64,000 nucleotides of DNA from Micromonospora antibiotica. GTDB taxonomy: Bacteria > Actinomycetota > Actinomycetes > Mycobacteriales > Micromonosporaceae. The notes under the pieces were generated by a model that was given only the letters and a program-made list of their open reading frames with translations, was not told where the DNA came from and did no database searches. Each line of letters begins with the position of its first letter. Positions within the stretch are counted from its first letter, which is position 1. Position numbers and translations under genes: made by a program. Below, piece after piece: positions 6,323 through 32,876 of this stretch. Where the stretch lies: positions 248,001-312,000 of the forward strand of contig NZ_JAGFWR010000003.1 of assembly GCF_017599305.1 (NCBI RefSeq), given 5' to 3'.

Positions 6323-7258
6323 GTGCCCCACCCCGACGAACCTTCGGCGCTGGCGTACACCGCCCGTCGGGTCCGCCGGCACCTGCGCTGGGCGCGTACC
6401 GAGGGCATCCGGCGACTGGTCGAGGAGGACCGGCTCGACCCGGTCGACCGGGCCCGCACCGCCCTGGCCAAGTGGCGCTGGCGACGGACCCATCCCGGGC
6501 CGCCCGGCCGGGCCGTCCCGGTCTACCTGGTGGGCCTGCAACGCTCCGGCACCAACATGCTGACCCGGGGGTTGGACGCCGACCCGTCGGTGGAGGTCCG
6601 CAACGAGAACGACCGGGTGGTGTTCCACCGTTTCCGGCTGCGCCCCGACCCGGTGCTGACCGCCGTCATCCGGCGCAGCCGGCACCGGTACGTGCTGGTC
6701 AAGCCGCTGTGCGACACGCACCGGGTGGACGAGCTGCTCGACCTGTCCGGGGTCGCGCCGGGGCGGGCGCTGTGGGCGTACCGGGACGTCGACGACCGGG
6801 CCCGCTCCGAGGTGGCGAAGTTCGGTGACGCCAACCTGCGGGCGTTGCGGGCGATCGCCGACGGCACCATCGGGGACCGCTGGCAGGGGCAACGCCTGGA
6901 CCCGTCGACGCGGGAGCTGGTCGCCGGCTTCGACCACGACCGGATGACCCCGCACACCGCCGCCGCCCTGTTCTGGTACGTCCGCAACTCGCTGTTCTTC
7001 TCGCTGGGCCTGGCCGACCGCCCGGACACCCTGCTCTGCTCGTACGACGCGCTGGTCGCCGACCCGGCCGGGTACACCCGGCGGTTGTGCGCCTTCCTCG
7101 ACCTGCCGTACGACCCGGTGTTGCACGCGCACGTCGGCGTCCGCAGCCCGGCGCGGCCCCGGCTGGACATCGACCCCCGGGTACGGGCGCTGTGCACCGA
7201 GCTGACCGGCCGGTTGGACGCGTCGGCCGGCCGACCCGAGGCGGTGGAGCATGGCTGA
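6323..7258 (+). CDS. Sulfotransferase family protein (3rd of five)
   Basis: A basic N-terminal 60 residues are followed by a PAPS-binding loop, LQRSGTNML, at about residues 72-80. The rest has the alpha/beta pattern of the sulfotransferase family, including LLCSYDALVADP near residue 250. The GTG at 6323 is preferred because GAGGAGG sits 5 nt upstream. A GTG at 6284 in the same frame would add 13 residues and has no ribosome site. The end overlaps the next sulfotransferase gene by 8 bp. Its likely role is sulfation of a sugar in the locus polysaccharide. Confidence 0.8.
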   Translation: MPHPDEPSALAYTARRVRRHLRWARTEGIRRLVEEDRLDPVDRARTALAKWRWRRTHPGPPGRAVPVYLVGLQRSGTNMLTRGLDADPSVEVRNENDRVVFHRFRLRPDPVLTAVIRRSRHRYVLVKPLCDTHRVDELLDLSGVAPGRALWAYRDVDDRARSEVAKFGDANLRALRAIADGTIGDRWQGQRLDPSTRELVAGFDHDRMTPHTAAALFWYVRNSLFFSLGLADRPDTLLCSYDALVADPAGYTRRLCAFLDLPYDPVLHAHVGVRSPARPRLDIDPRVRALCTELTGRLDASAGRPEAVEHG

Positions 7259-8141
7259 CCCCACCGACCCGGCCCCGCACACCGCACCGGACCCGCAGGC
7301 CCGGCCCGCACGGACGGCCGACCCCGCACCGGGCCCGCAGGCCCGGCCCGCGCCGGACGCGGCAGCCGGGGCGGGGCGGCCGCAGGGGCCGATCTTCCTG
7401 GTCGGGTGCCAACGGTCCGGCACCACGATGCTGCGGCTGGTGCTCGACTCGCACTCCCGGGTCAGCTGCGGCCCGGAGACCCGGTTCCTGGCCGACATGC
7501 AACGCATCGTCGGGCGGGACTGGGAGCGGCTGTCCCGCTTCGGGTTCCCCCGCGATTACTGGCTGGGCCGCATCGCCGACTTCTTCGGCGGCATCCAGGC
7601 CGACTACGCCCGCTCCCGGGGCAAGACCCGCTGGGCCGACAAGACCCCGCTGTACGCGCTCTCCATCGACTTCCTGGCCGAGGTCTTCCCCGACGCGCAG
7701 TTCGTGCACGTCGTGCGGGACGGCCGGGACGTGGTGGTGTCGCACCGCAAACGGTTCGGCTACTGGTCGGCGGTCAAGTGCGTGGTGAAGTGGCCGCGCT
7801 ACATCCGGATCGCCCGCGCCGCCGGGGCCCGGCTGCCGGCCGACCGCTACCACGAACTGCGCTACGAGGAGACGGTCACCGACCCGGAGAAGGCCATGCG
7901 TGGCCTGTTCGAGTTCCTCGGCGAACCCTGGGAGGCTGGCGTGCTCGACTACGACGGCAAGCAGCACGACGTGGCGGGCAAGTACACCGCCGAGGCGGAG
8001 CGACGGCGGGCCGCCGCCGGCACCGACGCCCCGATCTACGGTTCCCGGGTCGGCACCTACCGCCGGGAGCTGGACCCCTTCCTGCGGGTGCTGGTCCGGG
8101 TCTTCTCCGGCGCCACCCTGCGCGAACTGGGCTACCGGTGA
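7251..8141 (+). CDS. Sulfotransferase family protein (4th of five)
   Basis: The first 45 residues are Pro/Ala-rich low complexity and contain the short repeat PQARPA twice. The sulfotransferase domain follows: the 5'-PSB loop CQRSGTTML at 53-61, ADKTPLY near 125, the 3'-PB strand HVVRDGRDVVVSH near 155, and YHELRYEETVTDP near 202. The ADKTP motif resembles that of heparan/tyrosylprotein-type sulfotransferases. The ATG overlaps the end of the upstream gene by 8 bp, and the next gene's GTG overlaps its stop, so this is a tightly coupled three-gene operon. Confidence 0.85.
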   Translation: MADPTDPAPHTAPDPQARPARTADPAPGPQARPAPDAAAGAGRPQGPIFLVGCQRSGTTMLRLVLDSHSRVSCGPETRFLADMQRIVGRDWERLSRFGFPRDYWLGRIADFFGGIQADYARSRGKTRWADKTPLYALSIDFLAEVFPDAQFVHVVRDGRDVVVSHRKRFGYWSAVKCVVKWPRYIRIARAAGARLPADRYHELRYEETVTDPEKAMRGLFEFLGEPWEAGVLDYDGKQHDVAGKYTAEAERRRAAAGTDAPIYGSRVGTYRRELDPFLRVLVRVFSGATLRELGYR

Positions 8142-19017: not shown

Positions 19018-22000
19018 TCAGGAGGTCGGGCCGCCGAACTCCACCCAGTTGAGGTTGAACAGGCTGGTCGTGGGTCCGCCGGAGACGGGCTTGAAGACCA
19101 GGTAGAGCGCGTGGGTGCCGGCGGCCTGGCTGACCGGGAAGGTCTGGCTGGCCCAGGCGCTGGTGCCGGTGGTCGCGTTGAGCGTCGCGCTGGTCACCAG
19201 CGCACCGGTCGGCGAGTCGAGCCGCAGCTCGACGATGCCGCGCGGGGTTCCGACGGTGGCCGTGGAGCCACCGGCGTACCGGAAGGTGATCTTGTCGATC
19301 CCGCCCAGGTTGATCGGGTCGAGCGCGATGTGGTCACCGTTGTCGATGCCGGCCACGTGCTGGCCGCCACCGGCGTCGGTGGTGTTGGCCAGGGTGACGC
19401 CCTGCTGGACCTGGGCGAACTCGGCCTGCTGCCGGAAGGTCTGCAGGACGATCTGGTCGAGCGAGGACAGCGCCGGCTGGCCGTTGGCGCCCTTGTCGGT
19501 GTAGGTGGCGCTGATCGCGCCGTACAGGTAGCCACCGGCGTGGTCGGCGCCGTCGGCCGGGGTCTCGAACGAGCCGGAGCAGCCGTTGGCGTCGCTCATG
19601 CCGTGGCCGTGGGTGTCGTGGCCGAGCACGAACGAGACCGTGACCCGGCTGCAGTCGATCGGGCCGTCCTCGGGGTCGGTCACGGTGACCGTCCACGGCA
19701 CGGTGTCACCCCAGTTGAAGAACGTGCCGGACAGCGGCGAGGTGACCTTCACGGTGGGCGCGGTGTTGCCCACGGTGATCTCGCGGGTGAGCACCGCCGT
19801 CTTGCCGCTGGTGTCGGTGACCGTCAGCTTGGCGGTGAACACCCCGACGGTGGTGTAGGTGTGCGACGCGTCCCGCTGGGTCGAGTCGGTGCTGCCGTTG
19901 CCGTCGAAGTCCCAGGCGTAGGTGATGGTCTCGCCCGGGTCCGCGTCGTAGGAGCCCTCGGCGGAGAACTGCACGGTCAGCGGCGCCGCACCCGAGGTCG
20001 GGCTGGCCTTCAGTTCGGCCACCGGCGCCCGGGTGCCCTTGGCGTAGCGGATCACCGACAGCGCGGCGTCCGGGTTGGCCCGGAAGAAGCCGTCGCCGTA
20101 CTCCAGCAGGTAAAGGCTGCCGTCCGGGCCGAACTCCATGTCCATCGGGTTGTCGAAGACGAAGCCCGGCAGGAACTGCTCCACCCCGACCAGCTTGCCG
20201 CTGCCGTTGGTGCGCATCATGTAGATCTTGTCCCGGGTGAACTCCCCGAAGACCACCGCGTCGTTGTAGTACTCCGGGAACTTGGTCTCGGAGGCCAGCG
20301 CGGCGTCGTACTTGTAGACCGGGCCGCCCATCGGGCCGACGCCCCCGGTGCCGAGCACCGGCCACTGGAACTCACAGGTGCCCGGCGGGGTGCTCAGGTA
20401 CGCCTCGGCGCAGGTGGTGGTGGCCCGGAAGGTGTAGTTGAGCTGCGGGTCCTGCACCGGCGGGAGGACCCGACGGCCGGTGTTGCGCGGCGAGTCGTTC
20501 ACCGGCGCGGCGCAGTTGAACGCGCCCTTGGACTGCTTGGTGACGAAGTCGTAGTCGATGTACGGCAGGGTCGGCGAGTAGCAGTACGGCCAGCCGTAGT
20601 TGCCTGCCTTGTTGGCGGCGATCCACCGCCCGGTGCCCTCCGGCCCCCGGGCCGCGTTCGGCACCTGCGAGTCCGGCGAGTAGTCACCGATGTAGACGAA
20701 GCCCCGCGAGTCCACGTCGAAGCGGAACGGGTTGCGCAGGCCCATCAGGAAGATCTCCGGGCGGGTCTTGTCGTCGCGGTCCTCGGCCTCGGGGAAGAGG
20801 TTGCCGGCCGGGACGCTGTACGACCCGTCCGCCTTCACCTTGATCCGCAGCACCTTGCCCCGCAGGTCGTTGGTGTTGCCGGCGGAACGCTGCGCGTCGT
20901 AGCCCGGCCCCTGGGTCGGCGACTCGTTGATCGGGGTGAAGCCGTCCGAGCCACCGGCGTTGGTGTCGTCGCCGGTGACCAGGTAGAGCAGCCCCTTGCC
21001 GTCGAACTTGATCTCACCGGCGACGTGGCAGCAGACACCCCGGTCGGTGTCGACCTTTATGATCTTCTGCTCGCTGGCCAGGTCCAGGTGCGGGGTCGGC
21101 TCCTCCACCCACTTGAACCGGGAGAGCTGGTTGTGCCCCTTGTAGGCGTCCCACGCGCTCGGGTCGGTGCTGGTCACCGGCGCGTCGGTGATGGGGGTGT
21201 CGAGCTTCGGCGCGTAGTAGACGTAGACCCACTTGTCGGTGGCGAAGTCCGGGCCGACGGTGACCGACTGGAGGCCGTCCTCGTCGTGCTGGTACACCGG
21301 GAGGGTGGTGATGACCGGGCTCGCGCCGGTCTTCGGGTCGTACAGCCGGATCTCGCCGGCCCGGGTGTTGTGCAGCACCCGACCGTCGGGCAGCACCGAC
21401 AGGGTCATCGGCTCGCCCGGCTCGTCGTTGAGGATGACCTTCTCGTAGTTGGCCTTGACCGTCGCACCGCAGTCGCCCTGGACCATGCCGGCCGACCACT
21501 GGATCGCGCCGAGCAGGTGCTTGCGGAACGCCCCGTTGGCGTACGTGTCGGCGGAGTCGCCGAGTCCGGTGTAGAACGACCGGCCGCCCTGGAAGTCCTT
21601 GCACCAGGAGATCGGGTGGTCGAAGCCCATGGTGCCGCCGGTGAAGGACTTCTCGTCCACAGTGGCCAGCACGTGGGCGGTGCCCCGGACGTTGGTGGTG
21701 AAGTTGTACCACTGGTCGTTGAGGGTGAGCTGCCGGGCGAGCGGCTTGCTCGCCGGGTGCGCCCGGTCGGCCACGTCGATGGTCGCCGACCCGCTCGACG
21801 CCGTACCGGCCACGGTGGTGCCGACGATGTCGCGGTAGAACGTCCACGATGGTTCGGCCTCGACCGCGGCGTGCACGCCGAGGTAGCCACCACCGTTGCG
21901 GATGTAGCGCTCGAAGGCCGCCTCCTGGCCGCCGTTGAGCACGTCGCCCGTGGTGTTGAGGAAGACGACCGCGCCGTAGCTGGCCAGGTTGTCGTCGGAG

Positions 22001-22236
22001 AAGGCGGTCGCGTTCTGGGTGACGTCGACGGTGAAGCCGTTGCCGTTGCCCAGGGTGCGGATCGCGTTGACGCCCTTGTCGATCGACGGGTGACGCTCAC
22101 CGTCGGTCTTGGTGAACACCAGGACGCTGGTCTGGTCCTGGGCCGGCTGGGCCAACGCCGGGGCGGTCGCGGCGAGCGGGACGACGATCCCGACCCCTGC
22201 GATCGCGGCGAGCCATCGGTGTACCGATCTTGCCAT
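19018..22236 (-). CDS. Secreted ThuA - glucose/sorbosone dehydrogenase - PKD mosaic protein
   Basis: This 1072-residue exported protein has a signal peptide (residues 1-29, cleavage after ALA). Domains in order are: a ThuA-like (trehalose-utilisation/glutamine amidotransferase-like) domain at about 36-250; a six-bladed glucose/sorbosone dehydrogenase propeller at about 265-700 (DGRVLHNTRAGEIRLYD, GLRNPFRFDVD, YIGDYSP, MDMEFGPDGSLYLLEYG); a PKD domain at about 745-830 (YAWDFDGNGSTDSTQ); and a C-terminal beta-sandwich resembling CBM6-type carbohydrate-binding modules at about 930-1072. GGAGGAA precedes the ATG. Such proteins are common in actinobacteria and are thought to oxidise sugars, perhaps with PQQ, but the substrate is unknown. 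Confidence 0.88.
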   Translation of the reverse strand: MARSVHRWLAAIAGVGIVVPLAATAPALAQPAQDQTSVLVFTKTDGERHPSIDKGVNAIRTLGNGNGFTVDVTQNATAFSDDNLASYGAVVFLNTTGDVLNGGQEAAFERYIRNGGGYLGVHAAVEAEPSWTFYRDIVGTTVAGTASSGSATIDVADRAHPASKPLARQLTLNDQWYNFTTNVRGTAHVLATVDEKSFTGGTMGFDHPISWCKDFQGGRSFYTGLGDSADTYANGAFRKHLLGAIQWSAGMVQGDCGATVKANYEKVILNDEPGEPMTLSVLPDGRVLHNTRAGEIRLYDPKTGASPVITTLPVYQHDEDGLQSVTVGPDFATDKWVYVYYAPKLDTPITDAPVTSTDPSAWDAYKGHNQLSRFKWVEEPTPHLDLASEQKIIKVDTDRGVCCHVAGEIKFDGKGLLYLVTGDDTNAGGSDGFTPINESPTQGPGYDAQRSAGNTNDLRGKVLRIKVKADGSYSVPAGNLFPEAEDRDDKTRPEIFLMGLRNPFRFDVDSRGFVYIGDYSPDSQVPNAARGPEGTGRWIAANKAGNYGWPYCYSPTLPYIDYDFVTKQSKGAFNCAAPVNDSPRNTGRRVLPPVQDPQLNYTFRATTTCAEAYLSTPPGTCEFQWPVLGTGGVGPMGGPVYKYDAALASETKFPEYYNDAVVFGEFTRDKIYMMRTNGSGKLVGVEQFLPGFVFDNPMDMEFGPDGSLYLLEYGDGFFRANPDAALSVIRYAKGTRAPVAELKASPTSGAAPLTVQFSAEGSYDADPGETITYAWDFDGNGSTDSTQRDASHTYTTVGVFTAKLTVTDTSGKTAVLTREITVGNTAPTVKVTSPLSGTFFNWGDTVPWTVTVTDPEDGPIDCSRVTVSFVLGHDTHGHGMSDANGCSGSFETPADGADHAGGYLYGAISATYTDKGANGQPALSSLDQIVLQTFRQQAEFAQVQQGVTLANTTDAGGGQHVAGIDNGDHIALDPINLGGIDKITFRYAGGSTATVGTPRGIVELRLDSPTGALVTSATLNATTGTSAWASQTFPVSQAAGTHALYLVFKPVSGGPTTSLFNLNWVEFGGPTS

Positions 22237-24243: not shown

Positions 24244-24822
24244 CTATCCGGAACCGGCCAGCACCAGCTCCCCGATCCGCTGCTCCAGCGCCGCCGCGTC
24301 CAACCCGCCCGGCCAGCCCCGCAGCAACGCACCCCCCTTGGCGACCAGGACGACGGCCGGTGGCTCCCGCACCGCGTACGACCGCCAGACGGTCTGCTGC
24401 TCGTCGACCACGACCGGGTACTCCACCCGGTGCGTACGCAGGTAGTCCTGCAACTCGTCGGCCTGGTCCGCGCCGGCCACCCCGACGAAGACCACCCGGT
24501 CCCGGTGGCGGCGGGCCAGCTCGCTCAGCGCGTCCTGCCGGGCGACGCAGGTGGTGCACCAGGAACTGAAGAAGGTGAACACCACCGGCCGGTCCGCCCA
24601 CAGCCCGGCGGCGGTGAGCGGGGTGCCGTCGGTGAGCGCACCGGTGAACGCGGGGGCGGCCGGGGCGGTGCCGGGGGGCGGGCGCAACGCCAGGTCGGCG
24701 GGGACCGGACCGGGCAACGTGGACGCGCCCCCGGCGAGCACCGGCGCGGTCTCCGCGGTCGGCCCCGCGGAGCAGCCGGCCAGCAGCAGCACCGCCAGCA
24801 GCGCCGCGAGCAGCCGCCTCAT
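24244..24822 (-). CDS. TlpA-like thioredoxin-fold lipoprotein
   Basis: This 192-residue protein has a lipoprotein signal peptide with lipobox LLAGC (Cys17). The mature part has a redoxin/TlpA fold with the active-site motif WCTTC near residue 90 and the cis-Pro region REPPAVVLV near 153. It would act as a membrane-anchored thiol-disulfide reductase, for example in cytochrome or cell-wall protein maturation. It overlaps the upstream small lipoprotein gene by 4 bp, so the two are co-translated. The partner is unknown. Confidence 0.85.
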   Translation of the reverse strand: MRRLLAALLAVLLLAGCSAGPTAETAPVLAGGASTLPGPVPADLALRPPPGTAPAAPAFTGALTDGTPLTAAGLWADRPVVFTFFSSWCTTCVARQDALSELARRHRDRVVFVGVAGADQADELQDYLRTHRVEYPVVVDEQQTVWRSYAVREPPAVVLVAKGGALLRGWPGGLDAAALEQRIGELVLAGSG

Positions 24823-25289
24823 GCCGGCACCACCGCCACCAGCGCCGGCCCCTCGCTGCTGTCCGGGGTCAGCTCCAGCGCGGGCCGGCCGGCCACCTCC
24901 AGCCGGTACCCGGCCCGCTGCGGCACCTGCACCGGCACCGCGAACTCGCAGTAGGTCGGCACCCGTTCCACCTCGAGGTCCTCGGCGAACGCGGCCACCG
25001 CCGTGCCCGCCGGCAGGGTCCCGGTGACCAGGGCCGCCCCGTCGGGGTCGAGCACCCGGAACGGCGCCCGGTGGTGGAAGTAGAGGTACGGCCCGGTGCC
25101 GGCGCAGTCCACACCCTCGGCCCGGATGTTGATGTCACGAACCAGGACCCGGACGGTGATCGGGCTGACCGCCTCCGGTCCGCCGTCGGTGCCGGCACAG
25201 CCGGTCGCCCCGGCCAGCAGCGTCACCCCGGCCGACAGCAGGGTCAGCAGCGCGCCGGTGCCGCGCCGGGCACCCGTGGACAGCCGCAC
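24819..25289 (-). CDS. Putative small exported lipoprotein
   Basis: This is a 156-residue protein starting at a GTG preceded by GGAGGAGAC. An N-terminal hydrophobic segment ends at a cysteine (TLLAGATGC), a loose lipobox. The mature part is beta-rich, with two further cysteines (GVDCAG and TYCEFAV) that could form a disulfide. No family is recognised. Its coupling to the TlpA-like gene suggests the thioredoxin-fold protein may service this disulfide or a shared partner (inference). Confidence 0.65.
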   Translation of the reverse strand: MRLSTGARRGTGALLTLLSAGVTLLAGATGCAGTDGGPEAVSPITVRVLVRDINIRAEGVDCAGTGPYLYFHHRAPFRVLDPDGAALVTGTLPAGTAVAAFAEDLEVERVPTYCEFAVPVQVPQRAGYRLEVAGRPALELTPDSSEGPALVAVVPA

Positions 25290-25308
25290 GTCGTCTCCTC
25301 CCACCCGT

Positions 25309-25365: not shown

Positions 25366-27411
25366 TCAGGACTTCTCCACCCGGCACTGCTTCGTCACGG
25401 TCTTCGACGGGTCGCTCTCCGAGGTCGCGGTGAGCTTGACGAAACCGGTGTCCGCGGCGGCGGCGGTGGCCCCCACCGACACCCGGACGGTGGTGGACTT
25501 GCCGAACTGGGCCGTGGCCAGCGGGTTGGGCAGCCAGGTCCGCCAGCCCTTGCCGGCCACCTCGGCCGAGAGCCGGTAGACGTCCGACTTGAGGTACGCG
25601 GTCACGTCCTCCGGGTGCTGCTGCCCACCGGCCGAGTACGCACCGGTGTTGGTCAGCTCGAACGAGCAGGTCACACCCCGGTTCGTCGGCTTGCCGGTGC
25701 TGGTCACCTCACCCTTGCCCAGCGTCACGCCGTGGCTGCTCGGCCCCCCGGTGCCGTCCAGCGACCGCACCGCCACCGTGTACGACAGCGAGCCGGCGGC
25801 GTCCCGCTTGAGGTCGATGACGTAGAAGTGCAGCCGGTTGGCCTCGTCGACGTACTCGTACTGACTGCCGGTGTCCGCCCCGGCGTGGAACAGCGCGTCG
25901 GAGAGCTGCCGGTAGTCACCCATGGTGATCTTCTGCGGGGTGCCGTCCGGCCGGTAGAAGTCGATCATGTCGATGTCCTGCGGGTTGGCGTCCACCACCC
26001 ACTGGAACGGCGCGCTGTCGGCGTTCTTGGTCTTGCTCAGCAGCACGCCCCGGTCCGGGGTGAACGAGTCCGCGCCCATCCGGTCGACGACCTCGACGGT
26101 GTAGTTGTTGAAGCTGCCGCCGTCGCACAGCGGGTTCGTGGCGACCGTGCAGGCCGGCGAGAGGTCCTTGTTCAGGGCGATGTTCACGCCGGTCAGCCCC
26201 TTCGGGCCGGCGTCGACCGCGCGGGCGGTCACCTGGGCGGTGACCATTCCGGACGAGGCCAGCGCCTCCCGGGACAGCCGCAGCACGTGCTCCTCACCGA
26301 GCAGGCCGATCTTGAGCTTGTCCCGCACCGTGTGCAACGACCCCATCGAGCCACCGTTGGTCGGCGGGATCTGCCAGCGGGTGTGCGGGCCACCGGGGCC
26401 GTTGAACGAGCCCCGCGACATCATGCTCCAGATGCCGGTGTACGCCCGGCGTAACGGCTCGCCGTACGGGTTGTTGTAGTTGTCGCCGATGCCGAGCAGG
26501 TGGGTCAGCTCGTGGGCGTACACCCCCATGCCGGAGCTCTCCCCCTGGGTGGACGAGCCGGACCCGGCGTTGGGCCACAGGGTCGCCGCCGCCTTCCAGG
26601 ACGTCCACTCGACGTAGCGGGTCTTGGCCCAGTTCGGCAGGTTGGGGTCCGGCGGGCCCCAGGAGTCCGGCACGTCCTCCTTGTTCTGGAAGATCATCTG
26701 CCCGAACTCCTGCCAGGTGGACGACTCGTCCTGCCCGGCGCTGAGGATGAAGACCAGCTCGTACTGGTTGGCGACCTCGTCACCGACCGCCGCCCGCCAG
26801 GCGCCCAGCCCGTCGGTGCGGATGTTCTTGTTGCAGGCCTCCCCGCCCGGGCAGGCGCCGGGGTTGAAGCTGTTGTCCAGCCCGTACTGGTAGGACTTCG
26901 CCGGCAGCTGGTACGGCCCGAACCCGGCCAGGTCCACGCCGTAGCGCCCGTTGGAGTCCTGCATCCAGTACTCGTGCAGGGTGTGCCCCTTGTTCAGGGT
27001 GTTCGGGGTGTTGAGGAAGTCCTGGTAGAACTTCGGCACGTCGGCGCGGGGGATGTTGGCCGCGACCGACTGGGGGTTGCCGAAGACCGTCGAGCGGGCC
27101 CGTTGGGACACCGCGAACGTCTGGTCCGGATAGTCGAGCGCGACCAGGGCGATCTTGAAGTTGCGGATCGTGCCCCGCACGCTCGGGTCGGCCCAGTTCT
27201 TACCCGGCACCGCCTGGTAGTCGTCCCAGGTCATGGTGTCGGGGTTCTGCCAGGCCTGCGGGTCGAGGACCTGGAACGGCGCGGTGCCGCCGGCCGGATT
27301 GGCCGGGGCCGCGGCAGCCTGCGCCGCGCCGGTCACCACCAGCGTGCCGGCCAGGACCGCAGCCAGCACGGAACGCCTCAGTCGGGGTTTGTTGCGGGTA
27401 ACACGGTGCAC
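25366..27411 (-). CDS. Secreted M6-type metalloprotease
   Basis: This 681-residue exported protein has a signal peptide (residues 1-36, cleavage near AAAA). The zinc motif HELTH is near residue 299 (VYAHELTHLLGIGDNYN), with a downstream WSMMSRGSFNGPG segment that matches the M6/immune-inhibitor-A family Met-turn region. The C-terminal third is beta-rich and ends with an NPCBM- or Big-like domain (RVSVGATAAAADTG). The GTG at 27411 is preceded by GAGGTGA. It probably degrades extracellular protein. Its neighbours are other secreted hydrolases. Confidence 0.82.
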   Translation of the reverse strand: MHRVTRNKPRLRRSVLAAVLAGTLVVTGAAQAAAAPANPAGGTAPFQVLDPQAWQNPDTMTWDDYQAVPGKNWADPSVRGTIRNFKIALVALDYPDQTFAVSQRARSTVFGNPQSVAANIPRADVPKFYQDFLNTPNTLNKGHTLHEYWMQDSNGRYGVDLAGFGPYQLPAKSYQYGLDNSFNPGACPGGEACNKNIRTDGLGAWRAAVGDEVANQYELVFILSAGQDESSTWQEFGQMIFQNKEDVPDSWGPPDPNLPNWAKTRYVEWTSWKAAATLWPNAGSGSSTQGESSGMGVYAHELTHLLGIGDNYNNPYGEPLRRAYTGIWSMMSRGSFNGPGGPHTRWQIPPTNGGSMGSLHTVRDKLKIGLLGEEHVLRLSREALASSGMVTAQVTARAVDAGPKGLTGVNIALNKDLSPACTVATNPLCDGGSFNNYTVEVVDRMGADSFTPDRGVLLSKTKNADSAPFQWVVDANPQDIDMIDFYRPDGTPQKITMGDYRQLSDALFHAGADTGSQYEYVDEANRLHFYVIDLKRDAAGSLSYTVAVRSLDGTGGPSSHGVTLGKGEVTSTGKPTNRGVTCSFELTNTGAYSAGGQQHPEDVTAYLKSDVYRLSAEVAGKGWRTWLPNPLATAQFGKSTTVRVSVGATAAAADTGFVKLTATSESDPSKTVTKQCRVEKS

Positions 27412-27501
27412 AGGTTCACCTCTCGTCGGGAGGGACACGGCGTCCGGTCCGGTGTCGGCGGGGGGTGGCTGCCGGGGCACCTGTCACTGGGCCGCGCAGC
27501 G

Positions 27502-27684: not shown

Positions 27685-28602
27685 TCACCGGGGACGACCG
27701 TCGACGACCGGATCGACGGTGACCGACAGGGCCCGGACCAGGTCCCGGCGCAGCCGGGCGACGGCCGGCGGCGGCAGCGGACCGCGCGGCGGGCGGCACC
27801 GGCCGCCGAACCGTCCGGCGCAGTCCATCGCCAGCTTGATGGCCTGCACCGCCTCCGGCCGGGAGCCCCAACCGAATGCCGGGTGCAGCTCGGCGTAGAG
27901 CGGCAACGCCCGGGCCAGATCCCCGGCGACACAGAGGTCGTAGAGCCGCAGGGCCTGCCGGGGCAGCGCGTTGGACAGGCCGGAGACCCAGCCCCGGGCC
28001 CCGCACAGCACCAGTTCGAGCAGCACGTCGTCCGCGCCGGCCAGCACGTCCACGTGCGGGCAGAGGTCCCTGATCCGGTGCACCCGCCGCACGTCACCGG
28101 AGAACTCCTCGACCGCGACGATCCCGTCGGTCTCGGCGACCCGGGCGAGCAGCTCCGGCCTCAGGTCGACCCGGGTGTCGTACGGGTCGTTGTGGGCCAC
28201 CACCGGCAGGCCGACGGCGGTCACCTCCCGGTAGTGGGCGACCACGTCGGCGTCGCCTGCGGGGTAGCCGTCCGGGGGTGGGGCGAGCACCCCGGCGGCC
28301 CCGACGGCGGCGGCCTGCTCCGCCCAGCGGCGGGACTGCCGGCTGCCGTACCCGCCGACGCCGGGCAGCACCGCGCAGCCGGGTGGCGCGGCCTGCACCG
28401 TCGCCCGTACCACGTCGGCCCGCTCGTCGTCGGACAGCGCCCGGTACTCCCCCACCGACGCACACGGCGTCACCCCGTGGCAGCCCGCCTCGGCGAGCCA
28501 CCGCACGTGCTCCTGGAGCCGGTCGAAGTCGACGCCGAGGTCGTCACGCAACGGCGTGGTGATGGCGACCAGCACCCCCCGCCAGGGCCTACCAGCTGTC
28601 AC
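27685..28602 (-). CDS. DHDPS/NAL (DapA) family protein lacking the Schiff-base lysine
   Basis: This is a 305-residue TIM-barrel protein. It has the family's N-terminal ITTPLRDD, the substrate-carboxylate loop TPCASVGEYRALSDDER (family GxxGE), and VVAHNDPYDTRVD. At the position of the catalytic lysine it reads AVEEFSGD, with Glu where the family has AVKEFSGD or IKDSSGD, and the usual Tyr of the YNxP motif is His. It is therefore unlikely to work by the normal class I aldolase mechanism. The GTG start has GGAGGGAA upstream. It is divergent from a PucR-type regulator, which probably controls it. The function is unknown. Confidence 0.78.
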   Translation of the reverse strand: MTAGRPWRGVLVAITTPLRDDLGVDFDRLQEHVRWLAEAGCHGVTPCASVGEYRALSDDERADVVRATVQAAPPGCAVLPGVGGYGSRQSRRWAEQAAAVGAAGVLAPPPDGYPAGDADVVAHYREVTAVGLPVVAHNDPYDTRVDLRPELLARVAETDGIVAVEEFSGDVRRVHRIRDLCPHVDVLAGADDVLLELVLCGARGWVSGLSNALPRQALRLYDLCVAGDLARALPLYAELHPAFGWGSRPEAVQAIKLAMDCAGRFGGRCRPPRGPLPPPAVARLRRDLVRALSVTVDPVVDGRPR

Positions 28603-28672: not shown

Positions 28673-28825
28673 CGTGGCTCTTCGGACAATTGCCGGAACA
28701 GTCGCCGTGGGGGCCGTCCTTTTGTCGGTATATCCGCGGTGGACCTTGCGCACAGGCCCACCGGCCGCACAGGGTAGGGCACCGGCTGTCGCACCCCCTG
28801 CCGCGCAGCCAACCAGGGGAGATCC

Positions 28826-30058
28826 ATGCACGGTGAGCTTCAGCGCATAGTCGACGCCGTCGCCGCCCGGGTGGGGCGTCCCGCCCTCATCGAGGACCGG
28901 CGGCAGCGGGTGGTCGTCTACAGCGAACACGACGGGCCGATGGACGAGGTACGCCGGATGTCGATCCTGCGCCGGCAGACCACCCCGGAGGTGATCGCCT
29001 GGTTCCGCCGGATGGGTGTGCTCACCGCCCGCGAGCCGGTGCGTACCCCCGCCGACGTGGCCCTCGACCTGCTCCCCCGGGTCTGCGTGCCGATCTGGCA
29101 CGACGACCTGCTGCTCGGTTTCGTCTGGTTCATCGACGACGACGGGTCGATGACCGACGCGGACATCGCCACCGCGACCGGTGCCTTCACCGACCTGTCG
29201 CTGGCCCTCTACCGGGAGAACCTGCTCGGTGAGCTGGCCTCGCAGCGGGAGTCCGAGGCCACCCGGACCCTGCTGGTGGAGAGCGCGCAGGCCCGTGCGC
29301 ACGCCGTGCGTGCCCTGCTGGAGGAGGGTACGGTCGCCGGTGACGGCACGACCACGGCGGTGGTGGCCCAACTCGCCCCCGTCACCGGGCGGCACCCCGA
29401 CGAGATGGCCCGGATCGCGCTGGAACAGGCACTGGTGGCGACCCGCCGGTGGCTCGGCGTACGCGAGTCGCTGCACATGGTCTGGCCCGACCACGGGGTG
29501 CTGCTGATCTGCGGTGGTCGGATCGCCGGCCGGCCCACCCCGGAGGTCGCCGCCGGGCACCTCGACGAGGCGCTGGGGCAGGCGACCCGGGGGCTGTCCT
29601 CGGTGGAGCGCACGGTGACCGGCATCGGTCAGTCCCGCCCGGGGCTGGCCGACGCGGTGCAGTCGTACCGGGAGGCGGTGCAGGCGGCCCGGGTCGGTGT
29701 CCAACTGCCGGCGCTCGGCCGGGTGGTCTCCTGGGCCGGCCTGGGCATCTACCGGGTGTTGTCGCAGCTGGACGCGCGGCACCTCGACGTCGCCGGGGTG
29801 CACCCCGGGTTGGAGCGGCTGCTGCGCGACGACGCCCACCAGGTGCTGCTGGAGACCCTGGAGGCCTACCTCGACCTGGCCGGCAACGCCCACGCCACGG
29901 CCGAGAAGCTGCGGCTGCACCGGACCACCCTCTACTACCGGCTGCAACGCGTCGAGCAGCTCGCCGACACCGACCTCAAGGACGGCAACGAACGGTTGTG
30001 CCTGCACCTGGCGATGAAGCTGGGCCGGCTCACCGGCCACTACCGCACCCCGTCCTGA
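28826..30058 (+). CDS. PucR/CdaR-family transcriptional regulator
   Basis: This is a 410-residue cytoplasmic regulator. The N-terminal 130 residues look GAF-like (VCVPIWHDDLLLGFVWFID). The middle is a GGDEF-like/CdaR region (RESLHMVWPDHGVLLICG, TGIGQSRPGLADAVQSYREA). The C-terminus has the PucR HTH_30 domain (LHRTTLYYRLQRVEQL, about residues 373-388). AGGGGAGA precedes the ATG. PucR-type regulators control catabolism of purines, amino acids or sugar acids in response to a ligand. Its divergent partner is the DapA-like gene. Confidence 0.85.
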   Translation: MHGELQRIVDAVAARVGRPALIEDRRQRVVVYSEHDGPMDEVRRMSILRRQTTPEVIAWFRRMGVLTAREPVRTPADVALDLLPRVCVPIWHDDLLLGFVWFIDDDGSMTDADIATATGAFTDLSLALYRENLLGELASQRESEATRTLLVESAQARAHAVRALLEEGTVAGDGTTTAVVAQLAPVTGRHPDEMARIALEQALVATRRWLGVRESLHMVWPDHGVLLICGGRIAGRPTPEVAAGHLDEALGQATRGLSSVERTVTGIGQSRPGLADAVQSYREAVQAARVGVQLPALGRVVSWAGLGIYRVLSQLDARHLDVAGVHPGLERLLRDDAHQVLLETLEAYLDLAGNAHATAEKLRLHRTTLYYRLQRVEQLADTDLKDGNERLCLHLAMKLGRLTGHYRTPS

Positions 30059-30440
30059 CCGTGCCGGCCGCCCGGCGACCGTCGGGACAGGACACCCGCA
30101 CCGCCGCACTGTGACAGCCCGTGTCCGGCCGGACAGATCATTGACAGATCCGAGCGGGTACGGCCAGGATGGGCGCACCGATCGGCAATGCCCCCAGGAC
30201 CGACCGTAACCAGGTACGCCCCCCCGCCCGTCACGCAGACCGGATCGGCGCCGGTCCGTCGCCGCCGCGCGTCCGGGAGACACCCCGTGTCCCCCGTCCT
30301 GCGGCGGGTCGACGTCATGACCGGCCGCCCACCGTCGCCCGACTGTCGGCGTCCGACCTCCCCGTTTCGTACCCCGCCCGACGGCGGGCGCTGCCGCGCG
30401 CCGTCGGCCCGTCGTGCACCCCCAGGAAAGGTGGCCCGAG
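30059..30440. other. Intergenic region, 382 bp
   Basis: This region contains a candidate promoter (30141-30170) and the ribosome site of the carboxypeptidase gene, giving a leader of about 265 nt. Nothing else is recognised. Confidence 0.5.
30141..30170 (+). promoter_or_regulatory. Candidate promoter for the M14 carboxypeptidase gene
   Basis: TTGACA (30141-30146) and CAGGAT (30165-30170) are separated by 18 bp. The -35 box is perfect. Confidence 0.5.
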
Positions 30441-32876
30441 ATGTCTCGTTCCGCACTGCCCCGCCGCTGGCGGCGGCTACCCGCCGCCACGGCTGCCGGC
30501 GTGGCGTTACTGCTGCTCGCCGGCCCGGCGACCGCCGGCACCGCCGCCCCGCCCGACCGGGAGGCCGACGCCCCGATCGGGCTCGAACGCTCCGCCGACG
30601 AGCAGGCCGACGTGGTGGAGGTGGTGGTCGACGGCACCGCCGCGCTGGACGAGCTGGTCGCCACCGGGGTCGACCTCGACCACCATGTCACCCAGACCGC
30701 GCAGGGCATCGTGGTGCACGCCGTGGTCACCCCGACCGAGGTCGCCGCGCTCAAGCGGAGGGGCTACCGGGTCGGTGCCGTGCTGCACGACGCGGCCGAC
30801 TCCGCGCAGCGGGTCAGCGAGCGGGACGCGACGATCGCCGCCCACCAGGCCGAGAACCGGGCGTACACGGCGACCCTGCAGCGCAGCGCCGCCACCTCCG
30901 ACGTGAAGATCATCCGGGCCGACTACTACACCTCCGGCACCAACCAGGTGCTTTCGGTTGAGGCGAAGTGGGCCCAGGGTCAGACCTCCACCAGCACACT
31001 GACCGTGGCCCGCGACAGCGGCCCCGGCACCGAGATCGGCTCCGGCGGCACCCAGAACATCTCCCGGTTCGTCGACGCCGGGGTCTACCTCTATCACCGG
31101 GGCGCCGCCGCCGTCACCGCCCGGCCGCAGCGCATCCAGATCACCAGCCCCACCGGGGACGTGGCGGTCGCCGAGGTGAAGGAGTGGCTGCCCATCCCGG
31201 CCGACAGCCCGGAGGGCCCCGGCTACCAGAAGGACTTCGTCACCAGCTACCTCACCCCGACGGAGCTGTACGACCGGATCAAGCGGCTGGCCGACGCCTA
31301 CCCGCAGCTCGCCGAGGTGGTGAAGCTGCCCTACCAGACCAACGGGTACCGGCGTAAGGCGCAGGTGGTGCTCGGCGGGACCAACGCCACCCGGGTCGCG
31401 GTCGACTCGCTCGCCTGGGGGCACGAGGGCGGCAACGACATCACCGTCGAGCTGGCCAACCCGGGCGCGGCCGACAGCCCGCTGGCGGTCACGGTGACCG
31501 GCAAGGCCATCCGGGTCAGCCTGGCCACCGACGCCGCCGGCACGGTGACCAGCACCGCCGCCCAGGTCGCCGCGGCGCTGACCGCCGAGGCGGGTGCGCT
31601 GGTCACGGCGTACACCTACCGGGGGGACGCCGGTGCCGGGGTGGTCACGCCGGTCGCGTCGACGCCGCTGACGGACAACCTGAAGGCCCCGGCCGGGGTG
31701 TCCCGCGACCCGCACCCGGTGTACGCGATCCGGATCGGCAAGTACCGCGACGGCTCCCGCACCGGCGTGCTGGCCTACGCGCAGGAACACGCCCGCGAGT
31801 GGGTGCCGCCGCTGGTGACCATCGAGACCGCCGAGCGGCTGCTGCGCAACCACGCCACCGACGAGAACACCAAGCAGCTGCTGCGCACCCTGGACATCTG
31901 GATCGTGCCGTCGATCAACCCGGACGGCGGGCACTACTCGTTCTACGACTACGCCTCGCAGCGGCGCAACATGACCAACCACTGTGCCCCGGGCGGTGCC
32001 ACCGACGCGCTGGCCCGCAACTCGTGGGGGGTGGACAACAACCGCAACTACACCGAGTACAGTCTCTTCGACGGCTACTCGGGGGCATCGGCGAGCTGCA
32101 CCGGTGACACCTACGCGGGACCGAGTGAGCTGTCCGAGCCGGAGAACCGCAACGTCGACTGGCTGGCCCAGCGGCCCAACATGAAGTTCTCGATGAACCT
32201 GCACTCCTCCGGCAACTACTTCATGTGGTCGCCGGGCGCGTACGCCACCCCGGGTCGGATCTCCGCGCCCCGGCCGACGCTGGCCGACGAGTCGTTCTTC
32301 TGGGGCGCGTCGTCGCGCATCCTCACCGCGATCAAGCGGCACCGCAACATGGCGGTCACCCCGGCCCGCACCGGCCCGATCTCCGACGTGCTGTACTCGG
32401 CGGCGGGCAACTCCGGCGACATGCTCTGGTACAAGTACGGCATCTACGCCTGGAACTTCGAGGTGGGCACCAGCTTCCAGCCCACCTGGGACGAGGCGCA
32501 CCAGGAGACCATGGAGTTCAGCAACGGCCTGGTCGAGCTGCTGCGGGTGGCCCGGGACTTCGACAAGGACAAGAAGCGCCCGACCAGCACCCTGGCGGTC
32601 ACGCCGAGCGCCACCGAGGGCTCGGTCAGCGTCCGGTTCGACACCAGCGAGCCGGCGGCGGTGTTCTACACCCTCGACGGCTCCCGGCCGACGTTCGACT
32701 CCACCCTGTACGCCTCGGCGGGCATCCGGGAGGGGGGCGAGACGCTGACCGTCCCGGCCGGCACCAAGGTGCACTGGTTCTCGGTGGACGCCGCCGGCAA
32801 CATCGAGCGCAACTACCGGCCGGACGACGACAGCCTGACCTTCAACCGGGGCTGGGCGACCCTGCCCACCGGCTGA
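30441..32876 (+). CDS. Secreted M14 zinc carboxypeptidase
   Basis: This is an 811-residue exported protein. The signal peptide covers residues 1-32 (cleavage after ATA), followed by a propeptide-like region. The M14 domain is interrupted by an inserted segment (about residues 315-415). Its zinc ligands are His and Glu in EHAREW near residue 450 and His in NLHSSGNYF near 587, and the general base is Glu in WNFEVGTSF near 674. A C-terminal CHB_HEX_C/FN3-like domain (FYTLDGSRPTFDSTLYA) follows. AGGAAAGGTGG precedes the ATG. It would remove C-terminal residues from extracellular peptides. Confidence 0.88.
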   Translation: MSRSALPRRWRRLPAATAAGVALLLLAGPATAGTAAPPDREADAPIGLERSADEQADVVEVVVDGTAALDELVATGVDLDHHVTQTAQGIVVHAVVTPTEVAALKRRGYRVGAVLHDAADSAQRVSERDATIAAHQAENRAYTATLQRSAATSDVKIIRADYYTSGTNQVLSVEAKWAQGQTSTSTLTVARDSGPGTEIGSGGTQNISRFVDAGVYLYHRGAAAVTARPQRIQITSPTGDVAVAEVKEWLPIPADSPEGPGYQKDFVTSYLTPTELYDRIKRLADAYPQLAEVVKLPYQTNGYRRKAQVVLGGTNATRVAVDSLAWGHEGGNDITVELANPGAADSPLAVTVTGKAIRVSLATDAAGTVTSTAAQVAAALTAEAGALVTAYTYRGDAGAGVVTPVASTPLTDNLKAPAGVSRDPHPVYAIRIGKYRDGSRTGVLAYAQEHAREWVPPLVTIETAERLLRNHATDENTKQLLRTLDIWIVPSINPDGGHYSFYDYASQRRNMTNHCAPGGATDALARNSWGVDNNRNYTEYSLFDGYSGASASCTGDTYAGPSELSEPENRNVDWLAQRPNMKFSMNLHSSGNYFMWSPGAYATPGRISAPRPTLADESFFWGASSRILTAIKRHRNMAVTPARTGPISDVLYSAAGNSGDMLWYKYGIYAWNFEVGTSFQPTWDEAHQETMEFSNGLVELLRVARDFDKDKKRPTSTLAVTPSATEGSVSVRFDTSEPAAVFYTLDGSRPTFDSTLYASAGIREGGETLTVPAGTKVHWFSVDAAGNIERNYRPDDDSLTFNRGWATLPTG

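Follow-up and report, generated by a model that had tools for sequence, protein, structure and literature searches.

A DapA-fold protein without the catalytic lysine beside a PucR-family regulator in Micromonospora antibiotica, a candidate pseudoenzyme of hydroxyproline-operon descent

Introduction

The genes SCO6289-6293 of Streptomyces coelicolor are annotated, in an excerpt of PMC6608401, as encoding the D-Hyp dehydrogenase subunits, Pyr4H2C deaminase and Hyp epimerase. The structure 3NA8 is that of PA0223, according to an extract of PMC3281039. For pseudoenzymes, allosteric, scaffold and trap roles are listed in the accessible part of a review (PMC10211241). No lysine-less protein or pseudoenzyme of the DapA family was found described in listings of open-access papers, which is weak evidence of absence.

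Organization of the locus

The window is a stretch of 64,000 nucleotides from Micromonospora antibiotica (contig NZ_JAGFWR010000003.1, positions 248,001 to 312,000, forward strand). The features considered here are as follows.

24244..24822, minus strand: predicted lipoprotein resembling thioredoxin, conserved as the fourth gene of the locus (AhpC-TSA, 1.1e-12; TRX in the locus comparison)
24819..25304, minus strand: small protein, conserved third gene of the locus (LIPO4 in the locus comparison)
25366..27480, minus strand: M6-family peptidase, next gene downstream after a 204-base gap and a conserved neighbour (PF05547, 2.3e-10); N terminus signal-peptide-like by eye
27685..28602, minus strand: lysine-less DapA-fold protein, pseudoenzyme candidate, 305 aa (Pfam, PDB alignments, AF2/Foldseek, dN/dS)
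27835..27837, minus strand: codon of Lys256, the sole lysine of the protein (lysine count; invariant alignment column)
28108..28110, minus strand: codon 165 (GAG), with Glu in place of the Schiff-base lysine (codon reading and alignments)
28192..28194, minus strand: codon 137 (CAC), with His in place of the YNxP tyrosine (codon reading and alignments)
28679..28698, minus strand: candidate PucR operator TTCCGGCAATTGTCCGAAGA, an imperfect inverted repeat (genome scan; locus comparison)
28826..30058, plus strand: PucR-family regulator, divergent neighbour, in the same place in orphan and near operon loci (HTH_30, 8e-20)

The initial annotation gave the coordinates of the DapA-family gene correctly and left its strand, which is minus, unstated. 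The open reading frame starts with GTG at 28602, with TAGGAGG a little upstream, and its stop codon lies at the 27685 end. The pairing with a PucR regulator was also confirmed, as the PucR gene is divergent and 223 bases away. A gene encoding an M14 zinc carboxypeptidase is located shortly past PucR (30414-32876, plus strand), and two peptidase genes thus flank the regulator. At 19018-22236 (minus strand), a protein of 1072 aa is encoded in which ThuA, glucose/sorbosone dehydrogenase, PKD and CBM6 domains are joined.

The Pfam DHDPS family (PF00701) matches the protein over the barrel with an E-value of 7.2e-43 and 146.8 bits against a cut-off of 22.1. An AF2 model built with 74 sequences has a mean pLDDT of 93.9 and a pTM of 0.92, and its best PDB matches in Foldseek are DHDPS-type barrels (TM ~0.9). 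The barrel had been described as intact together with the GE-containing carboxylate loop; the loop is only partly intact, reading CASVGE against CGSLGE in the nearest operon forms. The score against the NCBIfam dapA model (TIGR00674) is 133.4, below the equivalog cut-off of 206.15.

Two features of the DHDPS/NAL superfamily are replaced in the protein, the Schiff-base lysine of strand 6 by Glu165 and the YNxP tyrosine by His137. In four printed alignments from a phmmer search of the PDB, VEEFSGD of the query is aligned with VKESTGD, VKEASGN, IKEATGQ and IKDATGD, and HNDP with YNNP or YNVP. Since the placement of Glu165 and His137 agrees across all four, misalignment is not the cause. Both replacements named in the initial annotation are therefore genuine, with GAG and CAC as the codons, and its concern that a better alignment might put a lysine at the active site was not borne out.

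The probable ancestral hydroxyproline operon

In the Plantactinospora-type loci L041, L042 and L114 and in L113 and L115, PucR is divergent from genes encoding a FAD oxidoreductase, a 2Fe-2S protein, a second FAD oxidoreductase, the DapA-fold protein, a member of the proline racemase family and an M6 peptidase, in that order. No 2Fe-2S gene was found in L115, and an extra M6 gene follows PucR in L041, L042 and L114. The Pfam families of the L041 operon are DAO, Fer2_4, Pyr_redox_2 with Fer2_BFD, and Pro_racemase. The operon racemase carries the two active-site cysteine motifs, MCGHG and SPCGTGT. NCBIfam ranks it as proline racemase and then as 4-hydroxyproline epimerase, with both scores below the cut-offs. 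The gene order of the nearest operons matches that of SCO6289-6293 as given in the excerpt of PMC6608401, and the relatives with both Tyr and Lys are on this account very probably Pyr4H2C deaminases, judged by homology and context. This restricts the options left open by the initial annotation (non-aldolase enzyme, binding protein or regulator), the ancestor being best read as a deaminase of a hydroxyproline operon and not as a DapA, NAL or KDG aldolase.

The linkage to Hyp epimerase and D-Hyp dehydrogenase genes that is present in the nearest relatives is absent at the window locus. The dehydrogenase and epimerase genes are gone from this lineage, and PucR, the DapA-fold gene and the M6 gene remain. 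No proline-racemase gene (PF05544) was found in the genome of the window (G000), and such a gene scores above the cut-off in 31 of the 160 genomes of the genus, marginally so in G209. PF05544 is present in just one of the eight genomes with Glu at the lysine site, G286, which also has a canonical copy of the DapA-fold gene (L097). Partnership with an active Hyp deaminase of the same cell was rejected, as seven of these eight genomes have no gene of the proline racemase family and a second copy (at 1e-40) occurs only in G286.

Two operon-linked loci, from Prauserella and Amycolatopsis (L045 and L046, respectively), have racemase and aldehyde dehydrogenase genes, and no match to the dehydrogenase-subunit genes was found at either locus. 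They contain further DapA-family genes, two in L045 and one in L046. An Xaa-Pro dipeptidyl-peptidase gene follows in seven long loci of the His-Lys type according to clustering, and one of these (L035) was identified. With the M6 peptidase, it suggests that a wider theme of these loci may be to use proline-rich proteins, collagen for example.

Catalytic residues in relatives

The tree and the counts comprise 111 distinct sequences out of the 136 extracted. Another family member (L002), partial sequences (L048, L078 and L099), a broken frame (L076), sequences shorter than 250 aa and duplicates were left out. For the loci L001-L028, which were covered to 1.5 kb on each side, an orphan is a gene whose neighbours found are PucR and M6. 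Genes at contig ends (G180 and G288) and a damaged copy (G232) stand outside the 45 orphans.

Tyr and Lys are both present in 65/65 operon-linked sequences, with AAG or AAA at codon 165 and TAC or TAT at codon 137, and both are kept in 0/45 PucR-paired orphans, which are related by descent and do not amount to 45 events. The lysine site of the orphans is occupied by Lys in 19 (all with His for Tyr), Arg in 14, Glu in eight, and Val, Gln, His and Thr in one each. The strict PROSITE signatures fail in all 111 sequences, operon forms included. A relaxed form of the second pattern matches 65/65 operon forms and 1/46 of the others. This one is L132, the only sequence there with Tyr and Lys; it has no Hyp genes beside it and no PucR match, belongs to another clade, and is counted among the 46 and excluded from the 45.

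The tree is a quick LG+G4 one, and its long branches L119 and L124 come together. In it, the 45 orphans make up a single starred clade (SH-aLRT 98) that lies among the operon-linked forms. Together with synteny, this places their ancestry within the operon-linked group. Seven changes at the lysine site are required on the tree; seven residue types need at least six, so this number says little about repeated origins of any one residue. A newly catalytic Glu throughout the group is disfavoured by the six different replacements seen there (Glu, Arg, Val, Gln, His and Thr).

Each protein of the Glu clade has exactly one lysine, Lys256 (8/8), which is also the sole lysine in 15 of the 18 other orphans without Lys165. 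The column of Lys256 is invariant in the 74-sequence alignment, active-looking forms included. A migrated Schiff-base lysine is unlikely and was rejected, Lys256 being the only lysine left in the Glu clade. Residues of the old pocket are still present in this clade (Ser49, Asn138, Asp142, Thr143 and Phe167), which leaves room for some remaining activity.

Distribution of the Glu form

Relatives at an E-value of 1e-40 were found in 147 of 354 family genomes. Glu is present at the lysine site in all eight genomes with at least 92% identity (L001 and L003-L009), which belong to one Micromonospora subclade, and a pattern search of the 354 genomes found the Glu form of the gene only in those eight. 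The question raised in the initial annotation of whether Glu is conserved in orthologues is thus answered for this subclade, where it is fixed. Thirteen other V-E-E matches occur in the 354 genomes; two were read, one in a PdxT-like frame by eye (L096) and the other a chance match (L095). Glu is also present in the named records of M. haikouensis, M. matsumotoense and M. wenchangensis, whose proteins are identical to some of the eight and were left out of the counts as duplicates.

Codons GAG165 and CAC137 are each one base away from AAG and TAC, and a sequencing or assembly error, or a mutation private to one strain, could produce Glu from Lys by that single change. Such an origin, named in the initial annotation, is refuted and has a negligible probability, since Glu is common to eight genomes, each with a different protein and four of them assembled as single contigs.

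The Micromonospora orthologues with 75-81% identity keep the Lys and have HN(D/E)P at the YNxP site. The possibility that orthologues have Lys, named beforehand as counting against a real replacement, thus applies in half: this sister clade does have Lys but already has His for Tyr. The next relatives, from Plantactinospora (~72% identity), have YNNP and Lys. Arg occupies the lysine position in thirteen more Micromonospora genomes (~68-72%), twelve of which have an adjoining two-residue gap. Arg, Val, Gln, His and Thr are found at this site in five other genera, one genome each (L092, L094, L116, L119 and L124). A second family member in the genome of the window has the Lys and is 28% identical.

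The PucR-associated motif

The motif TTCCGGCANNTGTCCGAAGA was suggested by alignment of the intergenic regions of PucR and the gene. Its sole perfect match in the whole genome is at the window locus, and seven other places match with three mismatches compared with one for the reversed control. Within 600 bases before PucR, the best site has 0-4 mismatches in 45/45 orphan loci and at most two in 43. The nearest operon loci (L041, L042, L113 and L115) have 0-1 mismatches, and the distant operon loci (L044, L049, L077, L127 and L128) have 5-7, which is the level of shuffled sequence. Since some of all these loci served to derive the motif, the closest match it by construction. The promoter scan returned no site, and the terminator scan returned two, both in the M6 gene.

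Twenty further PucR loci were compared. The gene is absent from five that keep PucR and M6 (L149, L157, L158, L159 and L164) and broken in a sixth (L148, genome G274), where it is interrupted and shortened. The motif is kept at 0-1 mismatches in L148, L158 and L159. The L148 fragments correspond to codons 55-122 and 225-305, and a transposase-like open reading frame lies between them and PucR, with PucR, the motif and M6 kept. Two of the 20 loci are unjudgeable owing to contig ends (L153, whose contig stops 312 bases before the PucR gene, and L166). In 12 of the 20, the other genes of the locus were not found beside PucR, save for a weak aldehyde dehydrogenase match 5.9 kb off in L155. L151, L152, L154, L156, L160-L163, L165 and L167 have close PucR relatives (67-75%) in other surroundings, with neither a DapA-fold gene nor M6 adjoining. 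In G232, the His-Lys copy (L099, ~6916-7654) is without its first part; codons 64-297 are in frame and a piece of codons 52-60 is in another frame. Because the gene is absent or broken in 6/20 further PucR loci and damaged in G232, the DapA-fold protein is dispensable in places, and PucR with M6 does not need it everywhere.

Selection on the orphan proteins

Values of dN/dS were estimated under the GY+F3X4 model. The Glu clade (eight sequences) has a dN/dS of 0.059, and the other orphans have 0.077 (His-Lys clade, 19 sequences), 0.062 (Cys-Arg clade, seven) and 0.098 (wider Arg group, 12). The operon forms have 0.060, 0.078 and 0.044 (seven, seven and six sequences, respectively), and the neighbours in the same genomes have 0.03-0.05 (PucR) and 0.015-0.05 (M6). 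Fixing dN/dS at 1 in the Glu clade lowers lnL from -2269.7 to -2479.0, a cost of 209 log units. The gene is under purifying selection in this clade.

The divergence of the orphans relative to PucR has a median ratio of 1.49, with 0.64-1.49 in four operon loci, and relative to M6 it is 1.99, with 0.74-0.86 in the four operon loci. The constraint on the orphan proteins is partly relaxed, since they diverge faster against both neighbours than the operon forms do. Sixty-nine columns are near-invariant in the operon forms, of which 16 are lost in orphans and 53 kept. The lost columns fall in the two PROSITE catalytic signature spans in 10/16 cases compared with 11/53 of the kept columns (p 0.004), and the scaffold columns are kept. 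The partial correlation between the gene and PucR given M6 is 0.58 and that between the gene and M6 given PucR is 0.32; as this statistic ignores shared ancestry, it is weak support for a link between the gene and PucR.

Interpretation

The protein is probably a pseudoenzyme that was retained in the Pyr4H2C-deaminase lineage and serves in binding or regulation near PucR. By synteny and the tree, the ancestral operon consisted of PucR, D-Hyp dehydrogenase, deaminase, hydroxyproline epimerase and M6 peptidase genes, and the dehydrogenase and epimerase genes were lost from it. Tyr, Lys and parts of the carboxylate loop were subsequently replaced in the orphan lineage, differently by lineage, with the barrel under purifying selection. 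The window protein is predicted to be incapable of Schiff-base chemistry and to keep a DHDPS-type oligomer, and by binding a ligand or PucR it may modulate the locus, M6 peptidase included, that PucR controls. From the constraint on the protein and its linkage to PucR, we infer that it works with the regulator. An essential role is argued against by the loss or breakage of the gene in those six loci and by its faster evolution than its neighbours. A more specific and quite speculative proposal is that the dead deaminase has become a ligand-binding partner of its former regulator, binding an imine or keto acid derived from proline or hydroxyproline and telling PucR whether to drive the M6 gene; Lys would be free to change since only binding or interaction would matter.

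Two other explanations were weighed against the retained pseudoenzyme. A new enzyme without a Schiff base, in which Glu165 and His137 of the Glu clade serve as acid/base, perhaps to hydrate or hydrolyse a cyclic imine, would agree with the fixation of Glu in 8/8 genomes, with purifying selection as strong as in the operon forms and with the remains of the old pocket. It is nevertheless improbable, as the site is occupied by Lys, Arg, Val, Gln, His or Thr in close orphans whose neighbours are the same, which would confine a catalytic Glu to one subclade, and the partner pathway genes are no longer beside the gene. The gene might instead be a remnant in slow decay, having had no important role after the loss of the operon and its catalytic residues drifting. 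The absent, broken and damaged copies, the faster divergence than PucR and M6 and the many different replacements at the lysine site all favour such decay. The dN/dS values within three orphan clades (0.059, 0.077 and 0.062) each fit far better than 1, however, the extracted frames are open in all eight Glu-clade copies, and the scaffold columns remain. Plain decay was rejected on dN/dS and slow decay is somewhat unlikelier still than the new enzyme; the partial relaxation is nonetheless real.

As a retained pseudoenzyme, the protein would represent a traceable passage from enzyme to pseudoenzyme, from an intact operon through loss of the partner enzymes to loss of the catalytic residues, several of these steps being represented by living species. 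If the link with PucR is true, it shows how a catabolic enzyme can become a sensor. In annotation, such genes should not be named aldolase or DapA.

Comparison with known systems

DapA has the fold and the Pfam family in common with the window protein, and the Foldseek matches are to DHDPS structures, whereas the window protein is without the catalytic Lys and Tyr and falls below the NCBIfam dapA cut-off. Pyr4H2C deaminase (LhpC of Pseudomonas aeruginosa; SCO6292) belongs to the same Pfam family, and the nearest Tyr- and Lys-bearing relatives match SCO6289-6293 in gene order. The window protein differs from this deaminase in being without Lys and Tyr, and its genome is without the epimerase family. 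The accessible part of the pseudoenzyme review (PMC10211241) names no DapA-fold example, and the role of the window protein is a proposed one. Features of a pseudoenzyme that it has are the loss of catalytic residues, no substitute lysine and purifying selection; it evolves faster than its neighbours, however. In pseudoenzymes in general, going by the same part of the review, catalytic residues are lost with fold and selection kept, as in the window protein.
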